IMG/VR virus record: IMGVR_UViG_3300010293_000019
Span: 1 to 36,078 of that record
Reading direction: 5' to 3' (one strand)
DNA: 36,078 nt
Origin: a virus
Shown here: piece after piece, positions 2,576-35,673 of the stretch
Layout of the letters: each line of letters opens with the position of its first letter
Position numbering within the stretch: the stretch's first letter is position 1
Notes under the pieces: model-generated
What the model saw: the letters and a program-made list of their open reading frames with translations, nothing else
What the model was told of the DNA's origin: nothing
The model's database searches: none
Translations under genes and position numbers: made by a program

Positions 2576-3154
2576 TTAGAACTTATCTACAACCGTCCAC
2601 GTATCAAGTCCAGGCCGACCTGTTTTGCAAACAATTCCTTGCCACTGATACAAGTCTTTGTCGGACACGCTCGTTTCAACAAACCACTGGCAGAATGTGC
2701 CCTTATACTTGAACGGTTGCTTGTTCGGGTGGATACTAACATCCGAAATTTGAATCTCTTCGCCGATTTGCACCGGGCGAGTTTTCGGGGGTTCAGTTTC
2801 GTTGCACACCATTTCGCTGGTGCTGTCAACTAAGCTTCCGTACACTCGATTTATTAGCTCTGCTTTGCCTTGCTCAATTGCAAGAGCGCATCCATCATCG
2901 TCTGATACCGATGTAGAGAACGTATATTCGCCGACACCATTGTGCCACTGCTTCTTGTCGTCAAGTGCCTTAAATGTAGCAATGCACTTCTTCTGCTTGT
3001 TAAGCGTAGGAGTGATCCAATACTTAATATCACTAACCAGGCTCAACGTTCCAGTAACCTTGCTTCCTGTGGTTGAACGGAAGAAGCACTCAGCTGACAT
3101 AGCTGACGTTGATGTTGCCAGCATTGCAGCAATGATTAGAGTAGAGGTTTTCAT
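2576..3154 (-). CDS. Sec-secreted periplasmic protein of unknown function
   Basis: The 192-aa product has a classical signal peptide (MKTSTLIIAAMLATSTSAMSA, then Glu-Cys), with a likely cut after residue 21. The mature protein holds six cysteines (in AECFF, KKCIA, DGCAL, MVCNE, FCQWF and IVCKT), an even number consistent with disulfides formed in the periplasm. A Trp-rich C-terminal half suggests a beta fold. Its start overlaps the end of the following small lipoprotein gene (3151) by 4 nt, so the two are probably translated together. No family recognised. Confidence 0.7.
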   Translation of the reverse strand: MKTSTLIIAAMLATSTSAMSAECFFRSTTGSKVTGTLSLVSDIKYWITPTLNKQKKCIATFKALDDKKQWHNGVGEYTFSTSVSDDDGCALAIEQGKAELINRVYGSLVDSTSEMVCNETEPPKTRPVQIGEEIQISDVSIHPNKQPFKYKGTFCQWFVETSVSDKDLYQWQGIVCKTGRPGLDTWTVVDKF

Positions 3155-3447
3155 GGGCAGTAAGTCCTAATATCCCACAGCAAGGAACGGGCCACTGCAT
3201 CGTGACTTCGGTTCTTAATACGCTCGGTCTCAGCATACGTTCCGTTGAGCACGTTAAGGAGACCGTTAAACCCAGCAGCTATACGATCAGGCTGAGTTGA
3301 CAATTGACCTTCAAGGAACCGGATCTGTGCTTCTTTGTTTGCACAGTCAATCTTGTAGTAATTAAGGTCATTGAAGTCCATCCGCTTGGTAGTTGCACAG
3401 CCGGTAGCTAAGGCCGCGAGCATCAGGATGAGGATGGACTTTTTCAT
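3151..3447 (-). CDS. Small lipoprotein
   Basis: The 98-aa protein starts MKKS, has a hydrophobic core, and carries the lipobox LATGC (Cys17), so it is most likely exported and lipidated. The remainder is helical and polar, with a Cys at residue 35 and another near the C-terminus. It lies directly upstream of the secreted protein and downstream of the 56-aa protein; the three form one unit behind the promoter at 3665-3693. Function unknown. Short lipoproteins of other phages can block superinfection, but nothing here proves that. Confidence 0.72.
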   Translation of the reverse strand: MKKSILILMLAALATGCATTKRMDFNDLNYYKIDCANKEAQIRFLEGQLSTQPDRIAAGFNGLLNVLNGTYAETERIKNRSHDAVARSLLWDIRTYCP

Positions 3448-6804: not shown

Positions 6805-9243
6805 TTAGAACCGCATCTCAAACTTTACACCAACTGCAAAATCCTTGTTCGTAGTTGCAATTGCATTAAACGACAGCTTCTTATGCTTTGCAAGAGTTTC
6901 GGTGTGCTGCATACGAACATAACCAACAGTCGGGTTAGATACAGACGCAGTTGTATTAGTGTATTGTGCCTTGCCGTTGACGTCAACCGAAGTCGGGATC
7001 GACAAGTCCACCTTACCGCTAATCACCTTAGGAAACACACCTGCAAACACCTTAGTAGTCTTATCGGAGTAACCAGCTTCTGCCCAAACACTTTGGATCG
7101 GTGACACGTTAGTAACCAAACCCTTGCGGATCTCAGTAGTTGAGTTAATCCACCCTGCCTTAGCTTCAAATACATCGTGCTTGGCACTTACTGACACCTC
7201 AAACATCTGCGACTTCTTAACTTCGCCCCAGCTACCTGACATGTTGATAAACGGGCTGTATGGCATGTTAGAGAACTGCACGTTAGCCCGGACGCTGTCA
7301 CTAAGCTTGATGTTAGTCAACCCGTAACCGGTAACCTCTTGCTTGTCGTCGGACGCAATCTTTAGCACACCGTAATCAGTACCAAGGTATGCGCTACGAA
7401 TGTTCTTAAGATCGCCAATGCTGCGAGTGTCGTCGGTGGGCGCATCAGACAACCGTGATGCCCAGAAGTTTGTTGACGTTTGGTTAGTGCTGCCAAAGTC
7501 CATCGTCCAGTCTCGACCAACTTGGTCAAACACTTTCATGTCCTTAACTGCACCAGCTACATTAACACCGCTAATCGAACCAGTGAGTGTTTGGGCTGAG
7601 CCATCAATTGTGATAATCTTCATCTCGCCAATCGGCTTAAACAACTTATCAACGTCAAGCATCTGGATGCTGCTCATGTTAAGCCAAGCAATCGACGACT
7701 TCGCAAGTGTTTCGTTGACTTGTGCAGGAGACATCCACGGCCAAGCCTGCTTGAGTGCATCCACGGTGGCTTGTGCAGTTACTACACCCGTATCCCCAAG
7801 CTTCGACACGTACAAGGTCTTACGCAAGTCTCCGTTTTCAACACCTCGTGTAGTTGTAACAATATACAGTTGGTCATCTGGACCGCGAACGAACGCAACT
7901 TGATTGTCTGAACCACCAAACTGATTGTGGATCTTTTTTTCGATGATATCTACTTGCTGCTGAAAAGCTTTGATAATTTCTGCGTAGCTTGCCATGTACT
8001 TGTGTTCAGCAGTGTGAATCAGCACCTGCGTACCTTCGCTAGTCGGCGCAACAATGTCCATCAGTCCGTCGTTGTTCACGTCAACCAATACTGGGTGCAT
8101 AGTTGTTAGCGTAGAGGTATTGTAGTTAAACAACGTCGTGTCGGTTACGTCAACAAACACGCCGCCGCCATCGTTACGCAAAAACTGGATTTCACTGTGC
8201 TTCGGCCACTCGTTGTTAGTAAATTCTGGACGGCTAAAAATAATTGCGTCGGTTAGCCCTGCATTGTCAAAGTTATATGCAAGCGATGCAACATCATGCG
8301 GGCCAGTAAAGTTATAACTTGCCCACTTCGGCAGCATAAACCTGCGAGTCGGAAGGTCTGTAATCTTAGTCATTACCAGATTGTTGCTTCCGTCGACCGA
8401 CCAGCTAAACAGTGCATTTGGGCGAGAGATACTTTGGGTATTTGCATGGCCAACTTCTGTGATAATTACCGACGTTTGGCCGTTGCCCATAAAGTCGGCG
8501 CCGATCGCTGATGTGCCTGCTGTATTTGCATTGCTCGAATACACTTGGAAATTAGACGCAGCATTACCAAACATAATCATGCTCTTCATGTTTGTTTGCA
8601 TAAACATGTCGTCAAGGCCGTCGTTGTTCATATCACGGACGAAACCGCCTGCTACTTCTGCGTTGATCGGAATCTCAACTTTAGTAAAACTGGTTCCGTT
8701 GCTAATGAACATCTGACCTTTTGAGTTGGTCGAGTTGTTAGTATCTGAGTAATCTGAGTAGGGAGGCATAAAGACGCTAATCTTGCCGTTACCGGTAAAG
8801 TCGCCGAAGTATGGACCTTGTTCGCTACCGTAGACATTATTGTCACCCAAAGGGAACCATTCGGCGTTTTTGTTAACGAGCACGCCGTTTTCCCAACCGA
8901 ACACGTTAAGGTAGTATTCGCCCCACCGCCCGAGAGAATCTTTGGTCGTTGGCCAAAGTCTGCCAGTAACAATAACTTCGTCGAGGCCGTCACCGTTTAG
9001 GTCTTTTGCGACCGGCCACGTTGACCCAACTGTAGTGTTTTGCGGTACTGCTTGGATTTGGTCTACTGTAGCGTTAAATGCTGGGCCGCGTACCGGACGA
9101 TGGAACGGAACATCGCGAAGCGCCTGCGAAGCTTGCACGGTCGCTGGTATAGTTGGACCGGTAGTTGCAACACAGCCTGTCAAGAACATTGCAGCAACTG
9201 ACATGCTAATAGCGGTTTTTACGAACTTAGTTTTGCGTGACAT
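6805..9243 (-). CDS. Large FG-GAP/VCBS-repeat lipoprotein with outer-membrane beta-signal
   Basis: The 812-aa protein starts with a lipoprotein signal (hydrophobic stretch then LTGC, Cys24). It then carries FG-GAP/VCBS-type calcium-binding repeats, seen as DLNGDGLDEVIV, DFTGNGKISVF, DMNNDGLDDMF, DFMGNGQTSV and DVNNDGLMDIV, spread over about residues 80-410; these build beta-propellers in integrins and bacterial surface proteins. The last 170 residues show alternating polar/nonpolar strands and end VGVKFEMRF, with a terminal Phe like the beta-signal read by the BAM complex. The expected place is the outer membrane, with the propeller anchored by lipid and barrel. It is the largest gene in the window apart from none of the virion genes around it, and it has its own strong promoter. 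It may alter the surface of the infected cell. Confidence 0.8.
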   Translation of the reverse strand: MSRKTKFVKTAISMSVAAMFLTGCVATTGPTIPATVQASQALRDVPFHRPVRGPAFNATVDQIQAVPQNTTVGSTWPVAKDLNGDGLDEVIVTGRLWPTTKDSLGRWGEYYLNVFGWENGVLVNKNAEWFPLGDNNVYGSEQGPYFGDFTGNGKISVFMPPYSDYSDTNNSTNSKGQMFISNGTSFTKVEIPINAEVAGGFVRDMNNDGLDDMFMQTNMKSMIMFGNAASNFQVYSSNANTAGTSAIGADFMGNGQTSVIITEVGHANTQSISRPNALFSWSVDGSNNLVMTKITDLPTRRFMLPKWASYNFTGPHDVASLAYNFDNAGLTDAIIFSRPEFTNNEWPKHSEIQFLRNDGGGVFVDVTDTTLFNYNTSTLTTMHPVLVDVNNDGLMDIVAPTSEGTQVLIHTAEHKYMASYAEIIKAFQQQVDIIEKKIHNQFGGSDNQVAFVRGPDDQLYIVTTTRGVENGDLRKTLYVSKLGDTGVVTAQATVDALKQAWPWMSPAQVNETLAKSSIAWLNMSSIQMLDVDKLFKPIGEMKIITIDGSAQTLTGSISGVNVAGAVKDMKVFDQVGRDWTMDFGSTNQTSTNFWASRLSDAPTDDTRSIGDLKNIRSAYLGTDYGVLKIASDDKQEVTGYGLTNIKLSDSVRANVQFSNMPYSPFINMSGSWGEVKKSQMFEVSVSAKHDVFEAKAGWINSTTEIRKGLVTNVSPIQSVWAEAGYSDKTTKVFAGVFPKVISGKVDLSIPTSVDVNGKAQYTNTTASVSNPTVGYVRMQHTETLAKHKKLSFNAIATTNKDFAVGVKFEMRF

Positions 9244-9275: not shown

Positions 9276-9304
9276 ATTATACAACCAAAAAGGTTGCAAG
9301 TCAA
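9276..9304 (-). promoter_or_regulatory. Sigma70-type promoter for the FG-GAP lipoprotein
   Basis: The -35 is TTGACT (9299-9304) and the -10 TATAAT (9276-9281), with a 17-bp spacer and ATTTTGG just upstream. It starts 33 nt before the ATG of the large lipoprotein gene and immediately after the small lipoprotein gene. Confidence 0.85.
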
Positions 9305-9317
9305 CCAAAATTAGTGA

Positions 9318-9479
9318 TTATTTTTCTTCTTTATCTCGGAACGGATATGTTGCTACGTCGTATGTCGTTGTGACCACTGCTTTCGTTGCGTAGATTGTAG
9401 TGCTTGCTGCAACATCAACTACCGCAGTGGCACAGCCGCTAAGGGCTGCAACCACTGCTACCAAAATCACTGTTTTCAT
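9318..9479 (-). CDS. Small lipoprotein, 53 aa
   Basis: This short gene encodes MKTVILVAVVAALSGCATAV and continues to a DKEEK end. The lipobox LSGC places the lipidated Cys at residue 16, and the mature peptide is only about 38 residues, Thr/Ala/Val-rich. AGGA lies about 10 nt before the ATG. Its start is divergent from the HNH gene at 9518. The size and the lipobox recall entericidin-like or phage exclusion lipoproteins, but no specific family is recognised. Confidence 0.72.
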   Translation of the reverse strand: MKTVILVAVVAALSGCATAVVDVAASTTIYATKAVVTTTYDVATYPFRDKEEK

Positions 9480-9517: not shown

Positions 9518-10186
9518 ATGTTCAAACAAAACAAATATCATAATTGGTACTATAACATCATCGAACGTGCAAAGTCAAGAACTATTTTCGGCTATACCGA
9601 ACGTCACCACATTATACCAAAATCGTTAGGCGGCAGTAACAACGCGGATAACATAGTATCATTGACTGCCCGTGAGCATTTTATCTGTCACCTCTTACTC
9701 ATTAAGATAGTCGATGATGCTGTTAAACATAAGATGGTGTATGCTGCTTGGCAGCAATCTCGCCCAAGTAAAAATAAAGAGGTTAAAGTTACAGGGCGCA
9801 TTTATGAGATGCTGCGGCACCAGCTATCAGAATCATACACTGGACAGAAACGTGCTCCTTTTAATGTAGAATGGCGCCAAAAGATGAGCGCGAGAGCGCA
9901 AGGCGAAAAGAACAATATGTTTGGGAAAAACCATACCGAAGAGTCAATAGCTCTGATGCGTAAAAACAGGAAAGGGTTAACCGCTGGCGCTAACAATCCG
10001 TTCTTCGGAAAAACTCATAGCGAAGAATTTAGAAAAAGAAAAGCGGAACATAATAAGTCCCGCCCTAAAGTGTTTTGTCCTTATTGTCAACGGTATTTTG
10101 ATGTTGGTATGGCGAACCGTTGGCATTTAGATAAGTGTAAGTTCAAGCCTCAAGAACATACGGGCGATTCCATTTCCCAACATTAA
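9518..10186 (+). CDS. HNH homing endonuclease with NUMOD3 repeats and a terminal zinc finger
   Basis: The 222-aa protein has an N-terminal HNH domain: HHIIPKSLGGSNNADNIV gives H30-H31 and the Asn, and AREHFICH gives H54 and H58. Two NUMOD3 DNA-binding motifs follow (NNMFGKNHTEES near 135 and NNPFFGKTHSEEF near 165). A C-terminal CPYC...H...C segment (about residues 187-207) looks like a small zinc finger. It lies on the plus strand between minus-strand genes, as a mobile element would. Its last 44 bp overlap the 3' end of the gene at 10143 on the other strand. Confidence 0.9.
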   Translation: MFKQNKYHNWYYNIIERAKSRTIFGYTERHHIIPKSLGGSNNADNIVSLTAREHFICHLLLIKIVDDAVKHKMVYAAWQQSRPSKNKEVKVTGRIYEMLRHQLSESYTGQKRAPFNVEWRQKMSARAQGEKNNMFGKNHTEESIALMRKNRKGLTAGANNPFFGKTHSEEFRKRKAEHNKSRPKVFCPYCQRYFDVGMANRWHLDKCKFKPQEHTGDSISQH

Positions 10187-12456: not shown

Positions 12457-12464
12457 TATTTATT
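12457..12464 (-). promoter_or_regulatory. T4-type late promoter octamer (AATAAATA)
   Basis: AATAAATA on the minus strand, 17 nt before the tail fibre ATG. It overlaps the stop codon of the amidinotransferase gene (GAA-TAA-ATA). Confidence 0.5.
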
Positions 12465-13371
12465 CTCTTACTAAGTCCAGTGTTACACAATGAAATCCAC
12501 CGCCTAGCGTTCTTGAGTGTCGTAGTTCAAGAGGGATACACCGGAACCCTCTTTTCTCTAACATTCGAATAATGTCAGTTTGCTTTTTGTCGATAATAAC
12601 TGTTTCTTCATCGACACTTAACATATTTAGGGCGATCCACTTACTTGCATACGGATACTGATAAAAATCCTGTGCAACAACGTCATTGATATAAATTTTT
12701 TCCCAATCTCTAAAAGTCATTGGGCAATTACCTTCATTGACCCTACTACCATTGAGCAATACTAACCCTTCTCTTAACGGAGTAATAGTGCTATCGATAT
12801 GTACACCAGAATAAAAATTACAAGACTCAATATTAATGTGTGGAAATTGATCCCGCAACCAATACAATGCTTTAGCATTTCCACTATCGCTTAACAGATA
12901 AAGCCAAGTATCGCCTAACCTGCAAATATTAGCAGCATCTAATACCATATCATCATACTTAGGCATTTCGTGTACTTTTTTCGCACGATCTACAACGTCG
13001 CACAAAGAAGTAATTTCCATATTACGGCACGGGTACATCATGCTAACATCAACAATATCTTCACCGGCGACTAGCAATCGATCTCGAGGACAATAATTAT
13101 ACATTCCGTCCAGATTCTGATAATTTTGATGCCACGGACGATGAACTATAACATCCAACTCCTTTAGTGTATTACTTAAAATCTCGAGGTCTTCGTTAGC
13201 TTCGTCTATTATGTACTGTGGAACCGGCCCAGAAGGAACAGGAGTTTCTTTCCAGCTTGTTTTTTCGGATTCTTTCTTAAAAACTTTATCATAGCGGGGC
13301 CAATTTGCATACGAGGCTGACCCTACTACAATCTCTTTCAACTTTCCCCATTCATTATTGCTAGATAACAT
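12460..13371 (-). CDS. GATM-family amidinotransferase
   Basis: The 303-aa protein matches the glycine/inosamine amidinotransferase family, which moves the amidino group of arginine to an amine. All three catalytic elements are visible: D145 in LDAANICRLGDTW (human GATM FDAADFVRAG), H191 in SGVHIDSTITPL (MHIDAT) and the nucleophile C295 in LGGGFHCVTLDL (LGGGFHCWTCD). 'SKWIALNMLSVDE' matches the family too. The N-terminal NEWGKLKEIVVG is the usual first propeller blade. The start overlaps the upstream stop as TAATG, coupling it to the nucleotide-sugar dehydrogenase. The acceptor is unknown; an amino sugar fits the neighbours. Confidence 0.88.
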   Translation of the reverse strand: MLSSNNEWGKLKEIVVGSASYANWPRYDKVFKKESEKTSWKETPVPSGPVPQYIIDEANEDLEILSNTLKELDVIVHRPWHQNYQNLDGMYNYCPRDRLLVAGEDIVDVSMMYPCRNMEITSLCDVVDRAKKVHEMPKYDDMVLDAANICRLGDTWLYLLSDSGNAKALYWLRDQFPHINIESCNFYSGVHIDSTITPLREGLVLLNGSRVNEGNCPMTFRDWEKIYINDVVAQDFYQYPYASKWIALNMLSVDEETVIIDKKQTDIIRMLEKRGFRCIPLELRHSRTLGGGFHCVTLDLVRE

Positions 13372-14603
13372 TACTTACCTCGTGTATTTCCGTAATGAAC
13401 AAGGGTCACTCCTGGGAATTGATTTTGTGTACTTCTGCGCCACGGGTCAACCACTACACTACCGGGTAAAATATCAGAGTATATTTCTACTTTTTGTTCA
13501 CCTGTGTATCCGTATGTAATTTGTGCATTGTGCGCCAACAACACCACACCTTTAACAGAAACGGGAACTGTTTTTTCAGTTAATGGATCTAGGTATGTTA
13601 CATTCTTTCCTGATTCCTCAACGTAATAGCCAATTAAAGTGCTGTACGACCCATCTAAGAAATTAACATTCGGTTTATACGCCTTGCCGTGAATATAGAT
13701 AGGTAGATTGTAAAAATCTGATTTTTCTACTAGGAAATCAGCTAAGTTCTTAGCTTGTATTTCACGAGCATTAATAATAGTGTCAAACAAATCATACCCT
13801 AAATCTAATTTCTCTGCAAGGTAACGTAATGCAATATTATCCCTTGGATGACATGGTCCAGCATCTCCCATTCCAGCGACCATGTACTTCGGACTCATAA
13901 TACGAATATCACTATTTGCTAATGCGTTAGTCACAACATCAACATTGATATTCCCATTACGCATTGCTACGTCTTGAATCATATTCACAATGCCAACCTT
14001 AGCTGATATAAAGGTATTGTAAAAGATCTTAATGGACTCTGCCTCATCCCATGTTCCAACTACATAACGTGGGTTGTTCTGCATAATTGGTTTATAGAAA
14101 TCTATAAGTATCTTAGCATCACCAGTCTCATTGCCATCCTCGGTACCAATAATTACCATCTCTGGATTGACCATATCCCATTCCACCGACCCCATCGCAA
14201 TCAAATACGGATTGTAAATAAATCTTGCATTTGTTATGCAATCTCGTAGTTGATCCCGTGTTGTTCCAGGAAGCACGGTTGATATCAACACGACTAACTG
14301 ATCTTTAGTTACATACTTGTTTACTTCAGTCAAACAATCTTTAACTATTGCGTAGTCAAAGTCCTTTTTCTCTAAATGAGAGATAGGCGCACTACCGTCA
14401 AATTTAGGATCATGGGGTGTCTGTACTGCTATAAATATCAAGTCACGACCAGTAACTGCTTCTTGCACAGTTGGCTTAACAATTACTGAATTACTGTCGC
14501 GTGGTGCAACATCATAACCAAATACTTCGTACTTCTCTGCTATAACTTGAGCACAAGCTAAACCCAATTTTCCCAACCCAATAAACCCAATCTGATATGT
14601 CAT
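13371..14603 (-). CDS. UDP-glucose/GDP-mannose dehydrogenase family enzyme
   Basis: The 410-aa protein has an N-terminal Rossmann motif (GFIGLGKLGLACA, residues 6-18), 'AVQTPHD' and the LISTVLPGTT loop of the UDP-glucose dehydrogenase family. Catalytic residues are in place: K192 and N196 in ESIKIFYNTFIS and C251 with D255 in GPCHPRDNIAL (standard GG.CFPKD). The C-terminal UDP-binding domain is present (GKAYKPNVNFLDGS). Known enzymes oxidise the 6-hydroxyl of a nucleotide sugar to a uronic acid using two NAD. GPCHPRD departs from the common F-P-K, so the substrate may differ. A ribosome site AAGGAAG and a late-type octamer lie upstream. Confidence 0.87.
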   Translation of the reverse strand: MTYQIGFIGLGKLGLACAQVIAEKYEVFGYDVAPRDSNSVIVKPTVQEAVTGRDLIFIAVQTPHDPKFDGSAPISHLEKKDFDYAIVKDCLTEVNKYVTKDQLVVLISTVLPGTTRDQLRDCITNARFIYNPYLIAMGSVEWDMVNPEMVIIGTEDGNETGDAKILIDFYKPIMQNNPRYVVGTWDEAESIKIFYNTFISAKVGIVNMIQDVAMRNGNINVDVVTNALANSDIRIMSPKYMVAGMGDAGPCHPRDNIALRYLAEKLDLGYDLFDTIINAREIQAKNLADFLVEKSDFYNLPIYIHGKAYKPNVNFLDGSYSTLIGYYVEESGKNVTYLDPLTEKTVPVSVKGVVLLAHNAQITYGYTGEQKVEIYSDILPGSVVVDPWRRSTQNQFPGVTLVHYGNTRGK

Positions 14604-29020: not shown

Positions 29021-29241
29021 AGTGCCGCCTTCTGATACATGTCTAATTCGTCCTTATGCACCCATTCTTCATAACTTCCCTTATTGCTCATCCTTAAATA
29101 ACGAAAGTCGCTAAAGTCAAATTTTCCATTGTTCCTGACGATTTGAACATGACAAGAATAATTTTGACCAAATGCATCAACTGCATTTTCTTCTCTTTTG
29201 TTTCTAACTAATACAAATTCTGTTTCGGGTAAAGTGTTCAT
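29017..29241 (-). CDS. Hypothetical protein, 74 aa
   Basis: MNTLPETEFVLVRNKREENA... is a small alpha/beta protein with 'YSCHVQIVRNNGKFDFSDFR' and 'YEEWVHKDELDMYQKAAL'. It overlaps nrdB by 4 nt and the upstream HNH gene by 4 nt, so it lies in the reductase operon. No function known. Confidence 0.58.
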   Translation of the reverse strand: MNTLPETEFVLVRNKREENAVDAFGQNYSCHVQIVRNNGKFDFSDFRYLRMSNKGSYEEWVHKDELDMYQKAAL

Positions 29242-29990
29242 TTTAATTTATTTCTTGCGTGATATTCTTTCATTTTTAAACTGTGCTGTGCATTCTGTTC
29301 GGGTGTTCTTTTTGGTCGATGCGCCATCGATTTTTTTAAGTTTTCAATATGTTCTTTTGTTTTTTTCTTTCCTTTTAAAGGATGCACCGGTTTTACATAA
29401 GGAGAAATTCTTTCACTAAATGTATGCCGAAGCTGCTTCCCTTTGCAAAACCCAAATTTGCCTTCAGCGGTGTATTTAACATTAGATGGATTAGTTTTTA
29501 ACTCTAAGGCGCACTCTGTTAATGTAGAATACTCTTTAAAAAATGACCCATCTAAGTTATAAGCATACACTTTTACTCCTACTGCGTCAACCATTGCCTT
29601 TTTTGCTGACTCAGATATTTGTTTTTTCTTCTCTTCTGTGTGTTTTTTACCTAACATCCCTTTCGGATGACCATTTTCTTCTAACCACTGTTTTCTATAC
29701 TCTGAACATCTTCTTCTTAACCATCCAAAGAGCTTGTTGTTAACTCGGTTTAACGAATTATGGGTTGTCATTATTGCAACCGCATTTGCTAGAGGAGGAC
29801 TAGTTGGATACATTTTCACTAACAGTTGATGTGCTAAAAAATGTTCTTCCGGAGTTAAAAGCGCAATGTTACTTAAATCGTTTGTTCCACCTAAGCATCT
29901 CGGTATAATATGGTGTTTTTCTGTATACCCCGAGAGTACCCTAGTTTTACTTCTCTCAATTAGTAACGTGTAATGTTTCTTGTAATCCAT
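29238..29990 (-). CDS. HNH homing endonuclease with NUMOD repeats
   Basis: The 250-aa protein has the HNH core KHHIIPRCLGGTNDLSNIAL (H26-H27, N41), then TPEEHFLAHQLL (H50, H54). A NUMOD3 segment follows (GMLGKKHTEEKKKQIS, about 110), then a NUMOD1-type module (VYAYNLDGSFFKEYSTLTEC, about 140-180, with 'NPSNVKY..EGK'), then a second basic repeat (LKGKKKTKEHIENLKKS). It lies on the same strand as its neighbours, between nrdB and the second half of nrdA; a perfect late octamer precedes it. Confidence 0.92.
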   Translation of the reverse strand: MDYKKHYTLLIERSKTRVLSGYTEKHHIIPRCLGGTNDLSNIALLTPEEHFLAHQLLVKMYPTSPPLANAVAIMTTHNSLNRVNNKLFGWLRRRCSEYRKQWLEENGHPKGMLGKKHTEEKKKQISESAKKAMVDAVGVKVYAYNLDGSFFKEYSTLTECALELKTNPSNVKYTAEGKFGFCKGKQLRHTFSERISPYVKPVHPLKGKKKTKEHIENLKKSMAHRPKRTPEQNAQHSLKMKEYHARNKLK

Positions 29991-29998
29991 AGTAATAT

Positions 29999-30006
29999 TA
30001 TTTATA
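29999..30006 (-). promoter_or_regulatory. T4-type late promoter octamer, perfect (TATAAATA)
   Basis: Exact TATAAATA on the minus strand, ending 8 nt before the HNH gene's ATG. A second octamer (AATAAATA, 30026-30033) is nearby. The 45-bp gap holds nothing else. Confidence 0.6.
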
Positions 30007-30035
30007 TAATAAACAATAGTATTACTATTTATTAA

Positions 30036-31010
30036 TCATAACTTGCACGATTCGCAGGAGTCATTATCCATCTGCTCAATGTTAGTTGAACTAACCGTCG
30101 ACTCTTCGCTTACTACTTTAGCACCTTTTTTATTTATGAGTGAGTAATAAATCGTTTTTCCTCCCCAATAATGGAAAAGCATTAAGTTTTTTGCAATTAA
30201 TGTTGATGGTATTTTTTTCTCTGGAAAGAACACCGGATTGTAAAACGTATTAGTCGAAATAGATTGGTCTACGTATGCTGCTAACACCGCAGCAGTTTTA
30301 AGATACTCTGCACAGTCTTTTTGGTCCCACATCAATTGGTACTTGTTCTTTAATTTTTGGTATTCTGGAACCACTTGTACCAGTGACCCTGCTTTCGATT
30401 CTTTAACCGAAATTAAGGACATTGGCATCTCAATACCGTTTGTTGAGTTAATAACAACTGAACTCGATTCAACTGGGGCAATTGCCATCGTAGTCGCATT
30501 GCGAACTCCAAACTCTTTCATCTTCTCACGAAGACCTTCCCAATCCAAATCTGAGTCTGTAGTAAAGTCTACTAAGTCGTTAACCCCTTTAGCTCTACGC
30601 TCCCATGGGAAAATCCCTTGTCCGTACCGTGTTTTGCTGCTATCTAAGCAAGCACCTCGTTCTTTAGCAAGTTCTACGTTAGCTTCAGTTAAGTAAAACG
30701 CTTGATGTTCCATCCATGTCTTTACTTCAGCAAGTGCTTCTTTCTCACCGTACTTCAAATTACGTTTAGCGTGCCAGTATGCAAGGTTAGTAACCCCGAT
30801 ACCTAACGGACGGATTTCATCATTACTTAACTTAGATTGAATGCTAAGGAAGTCTTGGTAGTCTAATATGTTATTCAAACTGCGATGTAGCACACGGCAA
30901 ACACGACGCATGTCGTCTGGGTGTCTGAACATCCCCCAATTAATACTACCTAAGGTGCATAACGCTATTTTTGGCACATCACGAGTGCATTCTTTTTTAA
31001 TTATCTTCAT
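30036..31010 (-). CDS. nrdA-b: Ribonucleotide reductase alpha subunit, C-terminal part (split gene)
   Basis: The 324-aa protein equals the C-terminal part of class Ia NrdA, from E. coli residue about 458. C18 in KIALCTLGSINWG is the partner of the redox-active Cys pair (E. coli C462). NATTMAIAPVESSS and NGIEMP follow; Y288-Y289 in KTIYYS are the radical-transfer tyrosines; CESC at the C-terminus (C319, C322) passes electrons. The first 13 residues (MKIIKKECTRDVP) are a new N-terminal tail. The N-terminal part lies 1.1 kb upstream, beyond an opposite-strand endonuclease. Both parts must associate to act. Confidence 0.95.
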   Translation of the reverse strand: MKIIKKECTRDVPKIALCTLGSINWGMFRHPDDMRRVCRVLHRSLNNILDYQDFLSIQSKLSNDEIRPLGIGVTNLAYWHAKRNLKYGEKEALAEVKTWMEHQAFYLTEANVELAKERGACLDSSKTRYGQGIFPWERRAKGVNDLVDFTTDSDLDWEGLREKMKEFGVRNATTMAIAPVESSSVVINSTNGIEMPMSLISVKESKAGSLVQVVPEYQKLKNKYQLMWDQKDCAEYLKTAAVLAAYVDQSISTNTFYNPVFFPEKKIPSTLIAKNLMLFHYWGGKTIYYSLINKKGAKVVSEESTVSSTNIEQMDNDSCESCKL

Positions 31011-31025
31011 TCTTGTACCATTTCA

Positions 31026-31041
31026 TATAAATATATTTATA
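31026..31041. promoter_or_regulatory. Palindromic divergent late promoter
   Basis: The 16-bp perfect palindrome TATAAATATATTTATA holds one exact late octamer per strand: plus 31026-31033, minus 31034-31041. The endonuclease ATG lies 24 nt downstream on the plus strand, and the nrdA-b ATG 23 nt downstream on the minus strand. Confidence 0.75.
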
Positions 31042-31057
31042 CATCTTAGGGTGCACA

Positions 31058-32149
31058 ATGCATAAAATTAATACTGGTTCTGTTTACTGGCGACGCTACA
31101 TTAAATTTATACAGTCTCGGTCTAATAGAATCGTTCCAACAAATTCTATTATAGAAATTCATCATATTATCCCTAAATGTGCCGGTGGCGACAATTCTGC
31201 AACTAATTTGATCGAACTTACCGTTCGTGAACATTTTATTGCACACTGGATGTTGTCTAAAGTTGGCCTTAACGATGTTTGGTATAAACTCAGGTTTGCA
31301 TTTGGCTGTATGAGTGTTTCTAGTCAGTCTAACTCTTACAGAAAACTTCTTACCTCGACACAATTTGAACAATCTAAAAAGGTTAGAAAAGAGACGTTGG
31401 TGCAATGGAACTCGCTCGTTTCTTCTAAAGTTAAAGGAACATCCTGGTATGTCGACGAGGACGGCACTAGATATAGGTGTCATCAAACATCCCCTAGAGT
31501 AAAAGAATTCAATTTGACCTTAGAGTCGCCGGCAAAGGGAAAGAAATGGTTTACAGATGGCATTAAATTTTTTATGCTGTACGAATCTGACCCCATTATT
31601 TCCTCGTTGGGGTTAACTCCGGGCAGTCCAGGAAAAAATAGGTCAAAACAATATTCACCCGAATCACTAAAATCATTATCAGAAAACCGAGCAGGGCGAT
31701 TATGGTTTAACAACGGCATTAGATCGTTTAAACTCAAACCGACTGATTCAAAAATAAATGACCTAAAGTTAGTTCCAGGGCGGTTATTGTCCGCTGATAG
31801 CTTATCTAGGATAAAAAACGGTGCTTCTTGGGCTAGATCCTTAGAAGATAACATAAAAAATTCATCGAGACAAAAAGGAAAACTGAGATTCAACGACGGG
31901 GTAAGAAACTTTACACTATTACCCAATGATCCTTTGATTAATAAACTATCATTACATCCTGGTGTTATACTCTCTCCCGAAGGCAAATCGCAATTATCAT
32001 TCTGCTCTGGACACAAGGATGTTTCATACATCACAGGTAAAAAGTGGTTCAATGATGGCATAAAAAATTATAGGTTACCTGAATCCGAAGGAAGAACTTT
32101 AAATTTAACTCCGGGCAAAATTCGAGTAGTCAAACCAGCAAATCCTTAA
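31058..32149 (+). CDS. HNH homing endonuclease with five tandem WFxDG repeats, inserted in nrdA
   Basis: The 363-aa protein has an N-terminal HNH domain (IHHIIPKCAGGDNSATNLIE with H35-H36 and N50; REHFIAHWML with H59 and H63). Five repeats of about 32-45 residues follow, each beginning near 'GKKWFNDGIKNFRL': WYVDEDGTRYRC, WFTDGIKFFML, WFNNGIRSFKL, RFNDGVRNFTL and WFNDGIKNYRL. In repeats two to five 'L.L.PG' closes the unit. They probably form an extended DNA-reading array. The gene lies on the strand opposite to nrdA and splits it; its 3' end overlaps the first nrdA part by 20 bp. Confidence 0.9.
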   Translation: MHKINTGSVYWRRYIKFIQSRSNRIVPTNSIIEIHHIIPKCAGGDNSATNLIELTVREHFIAHWMLSKVGLNDVWYKLRFAFGCMSVSSQSNSYRKLLTSTQFEQSKKVRKETLVQWNSLVSSKVKGTSWYVDEDGTRYRCHQTSPRVKEFNLTLESPAKGKKWFTDGIKFFMLYESDPIISSLGLTPGSPGKNRSKQYSPESLKSLSENRAGRLWFNNGIRSFKLKPTDSKINDLKLVPGRLLSADSLSRIKNGASWARSLEDNIKNSSRQKGKLRFNDGVRNFTLLPNDPLINKLSLHPGVILSPEGKSQLSFCSGHKDVSYITGKKWFNDGIKNYRLPESEGRTLNLTPGKIRVVKPANP

Positions 32150-33653
32150 TATCGTCGTCTTCTGTTAATTCCCTAACTTTCTTTTTTTCTCCGTTAAAAA
32201 GTAAAACTTTATGCTGGCCAGGCAATACAATTTCTTGGCCGTCGTCTAATAACAAGGTAAACTCGCCTTCGTCATCTAGCGATCTAAATGGCTTTGTAGG
32301 AAGCAAGATCTCTTCACACAGATTGCTCTGGTAAATTGTATGAACTGTAGGATCGAAAGGACCTTGGTTCATCGCATTGTCGATAAAGGTTAGATATATG
32401 CGTCCCGTGTCGGACCGTTCCTTTAAAATGCCGCTCTTAAACACCTCCTCAGCTGGCATAGTTTTTGTGCGTAGGTCCTTGCGTTTCTCATAACGAACAT
32501 ACAACTCTTCAAACAATGCTGTATTCTGATAAAATGCTTCATACAAATCTGGAACCTCGTTCGGGTCAAAGAAAGTAATGTTTTCTTTATTTTTAAATCT
32601 TCGCCAGAACATTGCGTTAAGCACAACCCCGTAATCCATGTGCCGGACTCGGGTCTCTTCTGTGCCTTGGTTATTCTTAAGGACAATTAAGTCGTCAAAT
32701 TGATAATGCCAAATTGGGTAAAAAACTGTAGCACTTGCGTTACGAATTCCGCCTTGCGAACAAGACCGTAAATCTCCGAACCATTTCTTTAAAAAAGGTA
32801 TCATACCTGTATGCATGACTTCACCGCCTCGAATCGAGGCACCTAAGGGTCGTAAACGACCAATTTCAAGGCCGATTCCGGCTCGTTTCGAGGCATATTT
32901 GGCCATCATTTCACCTGCTGCGAATATAGAGTCCAGATTATCATCTGCCTTAATTAAAACGCAAGAACTGAACTGCTTTGTCGGTGTGCCTAATCCAGCG
33001 AGAACAGGTGTTGCTAAGGTAAACATACCGTCCGACGCACATTGATAGTAATCTTTAATATACTTCATGCGAGCCGACTGTGGCTCTTCCATATGGAATA
33101 CCGTTGCTGCTGCTACAATATATCGAACTTGAGGAGTTTCGTAGATTTCTTTAGTTGCACGATTTCGAACAAGATACTTTTCAATTAATTGTTCAATGGC
33201 TGCATAAGTGTAGTTTTCGTCTTTGTCGTGTTCAACAAAGGTTTCCATCTTATCCCATTCTTCTTCTGTGTACCAAGTAAGAAGCTCTGGGGTATATAAA
33301 CCAGTAGCAACATTCTTTTTAATGATCTCGTATAAACGAGGCGGTTTGTAATCACCGTAAACATCCTTACGCAACATAGATAATCGTTGCTTCCCTGCTA
33401 CAAACTGATAATTTACATGGCCTAATTCTGGATTAGACTCAACGTCTATTAAGTCTACTATAGCCCGTAATGTAATTTCGTCGATTTCTTTAGTAGTGAT
33501 ACCGTTAAAGAAGTGTGGTTGCGCTTTAATTTCAATCATTGACTGACTGACGTCGGCGATCCCCTTACACACTTTTGCAACTTGGGCTTGCCACTTAACT
33601 AAGTCAAGAGGTGCGTGTACACCGTCCCTCTTGATAACTTGAATGTTACTCAT
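32130..33653 (-). CDS. nrdA-a: Ribonucleotide reductase alpha subunit, N-terminal part (split gene)
   Basis: The 507-aa protein starts with an ATP-cone domain (IQVIKRDGVHAPLDLVKW, residues 1-95), which normally senses ATP/dATP. The catalytic barrel follows: C231 in FSSCVL (E. coli C225), then N444, C446 and E448 in SNLCEEI (E. coli N437, C439, E441). Family similarity stops at LPTKPFRSLDDEGE near residue 464. The last 43 residues are new: LLLDDGQEIVLPGQHKVLLF, then NGEKKKVRELTEDDDI, which resembles an intein/Hint segment. The redox pair of the active site is thus divided over two proteins (C231 here, C18 of the second part). Confidence 0.95.
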   Translation of the reverse strand: MSNIQVIKRDGVHAPLDLVKWQAQVAKVCKGIADVSQSMIEIKAQPHFFNGITTKEIDEITLRAIVDLIDVESNPELGHVNYQFVAGKQRLSMLRKDVYGDYKPPRLYEIIKKNVATGLYTPELLTWYTEEEWDKMETFVEHDKDENYTYAAIEQLIEKYLVRNRATKEIYETPQVRYIVAAATVFHMEEPQSARMKYIKDYYQCASDGMFTLATPVLAGLGTPTKQFSSCVLIKADDNLDSIFAAGEMMAKYASKRAGIGLEIGRLRPLGASIRGGEVMHTGMIPFLKKWFGDLRSCSQGGIRNASATVFYPIWHYQFDDLIVLKNNQGTEETRVRHMDYGVVLNAMFWRRFKNKENITFFDPNEVPDLYEAFYQNTALFEELYVRYEKRKDLRTKTMPAEEVFKSGILKERSDTGRIYLTFIDNAMNQGPFDPTVHTIYQSNLCEEILLPTKPFRSLDDEGEFTLLLDDGQEIVLPGQHKVLLFNGEKKKVRELTEDDDIKDLLV

Positions 33654-34104: not shown

Positions 34105-35673
34105 TTACTTTAAAATGTGCAATGTATAGTTAAAAACAGGTGCTTCGTTGGTTAATGTTGAAGTGTAGTTCAATGATACATATCCGCCGTCTTCGATCGG
34201 AATAAGGGTAACCCCTACATCAGACATTTCGGTGTACTCGTCATCGTATACTACATCAAAGCCGACCTTAGTAATTCTTAACGTACCAACCCTCGACGTA
34301 TTACCTCTTGTAATGGTATACTGGAACACCGCATTGGTTGATACCTTAGGAGTATCGATATACAGCATAGAAAGAACATTATCGTCTAACGTTACTTCAG
34401 TTCCTGCATACTGTGTTTTTGTTCCTAACACTAACTCAGCATTCTTACCTAAAGAAGCACTTTGTTTTCTATTTAGGTTAATAGATGGGACTACTTCTTC
34501 AGCAACGTCGGTTCTTGCAAAACCATCAGCAATACTAAAACAATTGCTGTTTGCAAAATCCACCGCTGCTGTTGCAGGTACTACACCAAGTAACGGGTCT
34601 GCTTGGGTACCAGTCATTGTATTACCAACGTCTGCGAAATAGTTATGTGAACTAACAACACTTGTTGAGTTGCCTACTCCAATGATGCCGTGTGCTGATA
34701 CTAAGTCGAAATAACTTTGGGTTACGCTAATATGCGATCCGTTAGTAATACGAACGCCCTGATATAACTCAGTTAGTTTTGCTTTGTTAATAGTAATTGA
34801 TGTTGAGTTATCCTCGACTATTGCACCATATGCTAAATTAGAAAATACACATTCGTCGATTACTACGTTTTTAGTAGTAAACGCCGACGATTTAAGTCTA
34901 ATACCTGCAATTGCTGACCCTGCAACTAACGGCATTACAAGAGGACCAACAAAGCCAACTCGTCTTAATAGAATGCTGTTAAGTGAGTCGATACTTAAAA
35001 TATCTCTCTCACTCATATGAATCATAGTTAAATCCGTTACTTCGTTGTACTGAGACGATGTAGTGCCGTTAATACCGTTGTTGATTCCGAACTGGCCATT
35101 GGCGTCAACGTTTCGCATAACTGATTGAGCTAATGGGCTAGTTGCACGAATTATTGTAGCATCTTTCCCTTCGCCTCTGATTGTAACAAATGGTAATAAA
35201 TTAATAACACCAGAAGTAATATAATGCCCTGTTGGGAAAAACAAGGTGCGGCGAACTAAAGGTTGTGACCCAATTAAATTTGACTTATATAGATTAGCAA
35301 TTGCACGATTAATTGCTGCGGTGTCGTCTGTGATACCGTCACCGACTGCACCAAAGTCTCTAACCGACACATAGTCGTCTAATTTGTCACCTAATGCTCT
35401 CGAAATAGAAGAAAGAGCAGTTGCTCCTGTTTGAACGGTGTATGTGCCGCGTTCGCCCTTGTATGTATATGTACCGCGAAGTGCAAAGATGTCGCTATAC
35501 TCAGTTAGGATCTCAGTGTTACCTAAATTAGGTGCACCTTCTTCAATTGTTCCGTTGCCGATAAAAAGTTGTTTGGTATCTAAGCACCAACCTAACTCAG
35601 CAGTTGCTAATTGAGGTAAATTTTCATGGTAACCATGACGGTGCATTATTCGGCTGATCTGCGTTATTGCCAT
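34105..35673 (-). CDS. Tailspike / tail fibre with pectate-lyase-like beta-helix
   Basis: The 522-aa protein has three parts. Residues 1-50 hold a phage tail attachment motif (TAELGWCLDTKQLFIGNG), as in Mtd-type and hyaluronidase-type fibres. Residues 100-400 form a right-handed beta-helix of the pectate-lyase-3 type, opened by VSVRDFGAVGDGITDDTAAI and followed by many 'I.N...I.I..C.F...' turns. Residues 400-522 form a beta-rich C-terminus probably for trimerisation. It likely binds or cleaves a host polysaccharide; catalytic residues cannot be assigned from sequence. AAAAGGAAAACAAA precedes the ATG and a late octamer lies upstream. Confidence 0.85.
   Translation of the reverse strand: MAITQISRIMHRHGYHENLPQLATAELGWCLDTKQLFIGNGTIEEGAPNLGNTEILTEYSDIFALRGTYTYKGERGTYTVQTGATALSSISRALGDKLDDYVSVRDFGAVGDGITDDTAAINRAIANLYKSNLIGSQPLVRRTLFFPTGHYITSGVINLLPFVTIRGEGKDATIIRATSPLAQSVMRNVDANGQFGINNGINGTTSSQYNEVTDLTMIHMSERDILSIDSLNSILLRRVGFVGPLVMPLVAGSAIAGIRLKSSAFTTKNVVIDECVFSNLAYGAIVEDNSTSITINKAKLTELYQGVRITNGSHISVTQSYFDLVSAHGIIGVGNSTSVVSSHNYFADVGNTMTGTQADPLLGVVPATAAVDFANSNCFSIADGFARTDVAEEVVPSINLNRKQSASLGKNAELVLGTKTQYAGTEVTLDDNVLSMLYIDTPKVSTNAVFQYTITRGNTSRVGTLRITKVGFDVVYDDEYTEMSDVGVTLIPIEDGGYVSLNYTSTLTNEAPVFNYTLHILK

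Follow-up and report, generated by a model that had tools for sequence, protein, structure and literature searches.

A phage gene for a putatively lipid-anchored, autotransporter-like outer-membrane protein with an FG-GAP propeller

Background

Known phage changes to the host surface are mostly caused by small lipoproteins or glycan-modifying enzymes. The DNA described here (IMG/VR record IMGVR_UViG_3300010293_000019; its whole stretch of 36,078 nucleotides is called the window) encodes an 812-aa protein that had been read, from the sequence alone, as an FG-GAP lipoprotein with a C-terminal barrel-like region, and thus as a protein of the cell surface. This raises the questions of where such a protein would be placed and what a phage would use it for. 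To judge from its gene content, the window is phage DNA: its contigs encode tailspike-like, PAAR/endolysin and virion proteins, exonucleases and replication proteins, and they contain a split gene for ribonucleotide reductase. The same virus is represented by a second, 61-kb IMG/VR contig, with 99.99% identity over the 19 kb that the two have in common.

Results

Layout of the gene and protein

The open reading frame had been placed at 6805-9243, and these coordinates are exact; it starts with ATG and is read from 9243 to 6805, on the minus strand (Table 1). A basic n-region is followed by the lipobox that the sequence-only reading had noted, L21-T22-G23-C24, in which Cys24 would be the lipidated residue. 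This cysteine is invariant across 35 aligned relatives, and none of the 58 full-length phage FG-GAP proteins lacks it (the lipobox rule finds 56, and the other two read LYGC); in most relatives it is followed by a long poly-Gly spacer.

The protein matches Pfam FG-GAP_3 (E=1.9e-14), and the FG-GAP families PF13517 and PF01839 score above their curated cut-offs (54.4 bits versus 26.9 and 23.5 versus 22.1, respectively); an FG-GAP match is present in all nine members of one alignment of relatives. Five FG-GAP-like calcium repeats had been counted: the assignment to FG-GAP stands and the count is only approximate, as there are six loops, three canonical (DxNxDGxxD, at residues 81, 204 and 388) and three degenerate. 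PDB profile matches of the propeller are fungal lectins (AAL2, E=6.5e-7). A full-length structure model has medium confidence (pLDDT 72.9, pTM 0.54); Foldseek matched its propeller to AAL2/PVL lectins (E 1.5e-7) and KICSTOR propellers. DDB1-like Foldseek matches of the same model were set aside, being propeller-fold matches with an rmsd above 30.

Table 1. Features of the FG-GAP gene and of the rest of the window
Feature	Position	Strand	Basis
Whole gene: 812-aa FG-GAP lipoprotein, predicted C-terminal outer-membrane barrel	6805..9243	minus	ORF, Pfam, alignment, models
Lipoprotein signal peptide, residues 1-24	9172..9243	minus	lipobox LTGC at 9172-9183; conserved Cys
FG-GAP beta-propeller passenger, residues about 72-420	7984..9030	minus	Pfam; PDB profile matches to fungal lectins; Foldseek
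Canonical calcium loop DLNGDGLDE, residues 81-89	8977..9003	minus	
Canonical calcium loop DMNNDGLDD, residues 204-212	8608..8634	minus	
Canonical calcium loop DVNNDGLMD, residues 388-396	8056..8082	minus	
Remnant homologous to the C-terminal tail of the S8 subtilisin domain and the turn that follows, residues 494-545	7609..7764	minus	segment profile
Linker preceding the barrel, residues 546-620	7384..7608	minus	
Predicted C-terminal outer-membrane beta-barrel, ~12-13 strands, residues 621-812, ending M-R-F	6808..7383	minus	models and Foldseek
Sigma-70-type promoter TTGACT-17-TATAAT	9276..9304 (TTGACT side at 9304)	minus	near-consensus
Probable 53-aa lipoprotein directly upstream of the FG-GAP gene	9318-9479	minus	lipobox-like signal
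Probable 222-aa lipoprotein, weakly LPP20-like	1833-2501	minus	lipobox-like signal
Probable 98-aa lipoprotein	3151-3447	minus	lipobox-like signal
NUMOD3/HNH ORF	9518-10186		
UDP-sugar/GDP-mannose dehydrogenase-like gene	13371-14603	minus	best homologues ~60% identical, near family gene in over 20 related loci
Ribonucleotide reductase large-subunit gene in two ORFs (30036-31010 and 32130-33653)	29238-33653		intervening plus-strand ORF resembles homing endonuclease
Tailspike-like protein	34105-35673	minus	Mtd_N and pectate-lyase-like domains

The C-terminal domain

The C-terminal region, noted earlier as barrel-like and ending in Phe, is a predicted beta-barrel with the terminus FEMRF. A model of this domain, for which 74 sequences were used, reached a pLDDT of 91.3 and a pTM of 0.85, and its 50 best PDB matches in Foldseek are all outer-membrane barrels, including the autotransporters EspP, Hbp and EstA; with E-values of 2e-3 to 4e-2 these matches are modest and do not point to one barrel type. 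A predicted structure without a barrel would have spoken against the sequence-only reading, and the model withstood this check. The strand number of about 12-13 comes from a model that is not resolved into a closed barrel. An exact F/W/Y ending is found in 50 of 87 distinct C-domains, compared with a background of 10.7%. The Autotransporter domain PF03797 did not match family members at E up to 10, or bacterial relatives at E up to 1. Predicted viral structures (BFVD/UniProt) contained two clear matches to the C-domain, both phage proteins: the C-domains of A0A6J5L9S5 and A0A6J5TBB6 superpose on that of the query with TM scores of 0.85 and 0.70 (query-normalised), respectively.

Relatives in phages

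No relative was identified by tblastn in named phage and plasmid records, or by a genome scan with a 3-row alignment. A first motif-pattern search found full-length relatives at 31% identity, from which alignments were grown to 12 and then 43 loci; a later motif pattern, checked on known loci, picked out 109 viral stretches together with six MAG contigs from betaproteobacteria. After removal of duplicates there are about 100 distinct loci, nearly all in viral contigs, and the copy number is one in each of 17 phage records. The gene for the T4-type capsid protein Gp23 was found in 11 of the 22 records tested, all 11 with sizes of 157-344 kb; the window's own contigs, which are fragmentary, yielded no Gp23 gene. 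A run of diverse proteins starting with MRAxEF or similar was observed on the near-identical 61-kb contig (L007:2073-11470 and L005:2226-3770); such starts are perhaps a shared targeting or prohead leader.

Relatives with an S8 protease

An FG-GAP domain is present in 138 of the 171 ORFs that bear the C-domain; because loci overlap, this number does not tell how many phages there are. Of the C-domain ORFs without FG-GAP, twelve have an S8 subtilisin with catalytic motifs instead, and Pfam confirms S8 in the five phage proteins scanned. Homology with these S8 and barrel proteins begins 25-37 residues inside the Pfam S8 domain. The 812-aa protein itself has no Pfam S8 domain, the C-terminal tail of S8 being the only part left: a profile of residues 494-545, built exclusively from FG-GAP proteins, matches all ten S8 and barrel proteins at the end of the Peptidase_S8 domain (iE 7.6e-6 to 4.4e-8). 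Burkholderiales S8 proteins align along the entire C-domain (profile-profile E=3.4e-16) and several of them carry a lipobox and poly-Gly; the C-terminal module is common to phage and chromosomal S8 proteases.

When a phylogenetic tree is constructed, the FG-GAP forms and the S8 forms are split by one branch (support 99.9), which fits a single exchange of the passenger; this single switch is taken from the tree without distant S8 outgroups, as long branches intrude when these are included. From the S8 remnant in the FG-GAP proteins we infer that the S8 form is ancestral. By sequence, the protein thus resembles a lipidated S8 autotransporter in which, on one occasion, a propeller took the place of the protease. 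The lipobox is missing from several S8 relatives and from four chromosomal FG-GAP forms, indicating that lipidation is dispensable for the module. That subtilisin-type autotransporter-like proteins have the barrel module too, that it belongs to a large family in many jumbo T4-type phages and that passengers are exchanged had all escaped the sequence-only reading.

Chromosomal homologues

A search for homologues in host genomes, suggested at the outset, identified them in betaproteobacterial chromosomes (MAGs). FG-GAP forms are present in four MAGs, and in the three with surroundings read they lie in the same chromosomal region near ychF; a fifth MAG, G045, also has an FG-GAP gene beside ychF. 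In the tree, the bacterial forms are nested inside the phage diversity, and monophyly of the five is rejected (p-AU 3e-59). As the bacterial forms are polyphyletic and lie within the phage diversity, at least two transfers of the gene between phages and bacteria, in either direction, are probable. The hosts are probably freshwater betaproteobacteria. Lipidation was considered as a divider of phage and chromosomal forms and dropped, because one chromosomal form (L199/L228) has a lipobox too.

The chromosomal FG-GAP and barrel genes near ychF (L195, L197, L198 and L228) belong to two lineages that are separated in the tree, which suggests that the site is a hot spot or that the gene was replaced repeatedly. 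One MAG (L181/L198), labelled Candidatus Methylopumilus, shares its gene order with Alcaligenaceae MAGs, and its label or binning may be wrong.

Promoter and neighbouring genes

The strong promoter that had been ascribed to the gene is present as TTGACT-17-TATAAT. Ten sites in the window have at least 11 of 12 promoter matches, all on the minus strand, with 0.85 expected per strand. Within ~160 bases upstream of family genes, such a promoter is found for 38 of 66, compared with about 0.5 expected. This conservation argues for transcription by the host polymerase, and the gene is probably transcribed from a host-type sigma-70 promoter early in infection.

Genes commonly found near the family gene in relatives encode a PTPS/QueD-like protein (70 loci), FkbM-like methyltransferases (55), sugar-nucleotide epimerases (54), GTP cyclohydrolase I (52), HIT (40) and a QueE-like radical-SAM protein (36); the only common neighbour also present in the window is the UDP-sugar dehydrogenase (22 loci). 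Together, the conserved cysteine, the promoter and the neighbouring genes make it more likely that the protein acts on the infected cell's envelope. The window also has a gene for a 303-aa protein (12460-13371, minus strand) whose match to dimethylargininase is weak (E=1.5e-5, below the cut-off); such an enzyme would be odd for a phage.

Discussion

The earlier interpretation as a cell-surface protein is supported across the phage relatives by the conserved lipidation signal, the predicted barrel and the early-type promoter. On computational evidence, from sequence and models taken together, the gene probably encodes a lipid-anchored, autotransporter-like outer-membrane protein with the propeller outside the cell. 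Following early transcription from the host-type sigma-70 promoter, the protein would be exported by Sec and lipidated at Cys24, the barrel would insert into the outer membrane, and the propeller would be displayed outside, tethered by both lipid and barrel. There it may bind a cell-surface ligand in a lectin-like manner, as its sequence and fold suggest: among solved structures, those nearest to it in sequence are fungal lectins that bind sugar. By masking or occupying surface glycans or receptors, the propeller could spare the infected cell from reinfection, so that progeny are not wasted on it. Such surface masking or superinfection exclusion is our leading, if tentative, conjecture on purpose and is drawn by analogy with the phage T5 lipoprotein Llp.

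The same architecture and location would also serve adhesion, with the propeller sticking infected cells to each other, to surfaces or to glycans and thereby aiding phage spread or persistence. The lectins among the nearest solved structures fit this, autotransporter adhesins are known to be held at the surface by lipidation (PMC9289746), and homologues at a resident chromosomal locus point to an ordinary role at the bacterial surface; the benefit to a lytic phage is however hardly obvious, and we consider adhesion unlikely. It is rather improbable that the propeller is lipid-tethered in the periplasm beneath the outer-membrane barrel, jamming or scaffolding envelope machinery: in relatives the module is joined to S8 proteases, with passenger, linker and barrel ordered as in subtilase autotransporters, and a long poly-Gly spacer follows the cysteine in most relatives, even though Llp of T5 sets a precedent by acting from the periplasmic side (PMC9586334) and the Pfam autotransporter model does not recognise the barrel. 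That the protein belongs to the virion, say as a decoration or in receptor binding, is very improbable, as it is hard to see what a virion would gain from a lipobox and an outer-membrane barrel, the promoter is of the sigma-70 type and no PHROG structural family matches the 812-aa protein, although FG-GAP propellers can bind sugars and the window also has a tailspike-like gene.

Returning to the lipid-anchored protein with an external propeller, the ~100 related genes, mostly from large phages, suggest a widespread and undescribed way for phages to refit the host surface. Quite possibly, a dedicated class of lipid-anchored, autotransporter-like proteins is common to lytic jumbo phages; its members would have exchangeable passengers, either a protease or a lectin-like propeller, would be made early to refit the outer surface and would constitute an undescribed effector route to the cell exterior. 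If a gene for an 800-aa surface-display protein is indeed common in jumbo phages, lytic phages invest heavily in the outside of a doomed cell. The pair of protease and propeller offers a direct handle, as the two passengers predict surface cleavage and surface binding, respectively.

Comparison with known systems

A limited search of the open-access literature found no paper describing a phage-encoded FG-GAP, subtilase or lipidated autotransporter. Phage proteins with either passenger are already in UniProt, as are others under the name autotransporter beta-domain protein, thus phage-encoded barrels as such are not new. The two uncultured phage proteins with similar C-domains are annotated as a repeat domain in Vibrio, Colwellia, Bradyrhizobium and Shewanella (A0A6J5L9S5) and as peptidase S8/S53 (A0A6J5TBB6), with no functional description in their UniProt/BFVD entries; their superpositions confirm both passenger types in phages. 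AAL2 and PVL share the propeller fold and FG-GAP-like loops with the window protein, a likeness at the level of fold and profile, and are soluble eukaryotic lectins.

Llp of the lytic phage T5 is an early outer-membrane lipoprotein for superinfection exclusion that blocks the phage's own receptor (PMC9586334); it resembles the window protein, which would likewise be an early outer-membrane lipoprotein of a lytic phage, but is small and has neither barrel nor propeller, and no sequence relation is claimed. The nearest system are the lipidated surface subtilase autotransporters NalP and SphB1 (Group 15, type Va; PMC9289746), which by description, rather than by alignment, have the same succession of N-terminal lipid anchor, passenger, linker and C-terminal barrel. 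The likeness extends to the relatives of the barrel module, which carry S8 proteases, some with lipobox and poly-Gly. In contrast to NalP and SphB1, the window protein has an FG-GAP propeller instead of the protease, its barrel is not matched by PF03797 and it is encoded by a phage. Because the Pfam autotransporter model is unmatched and the protease is absent, we classify the protein as one that would work like an autotransporter rather than as a member of that family.
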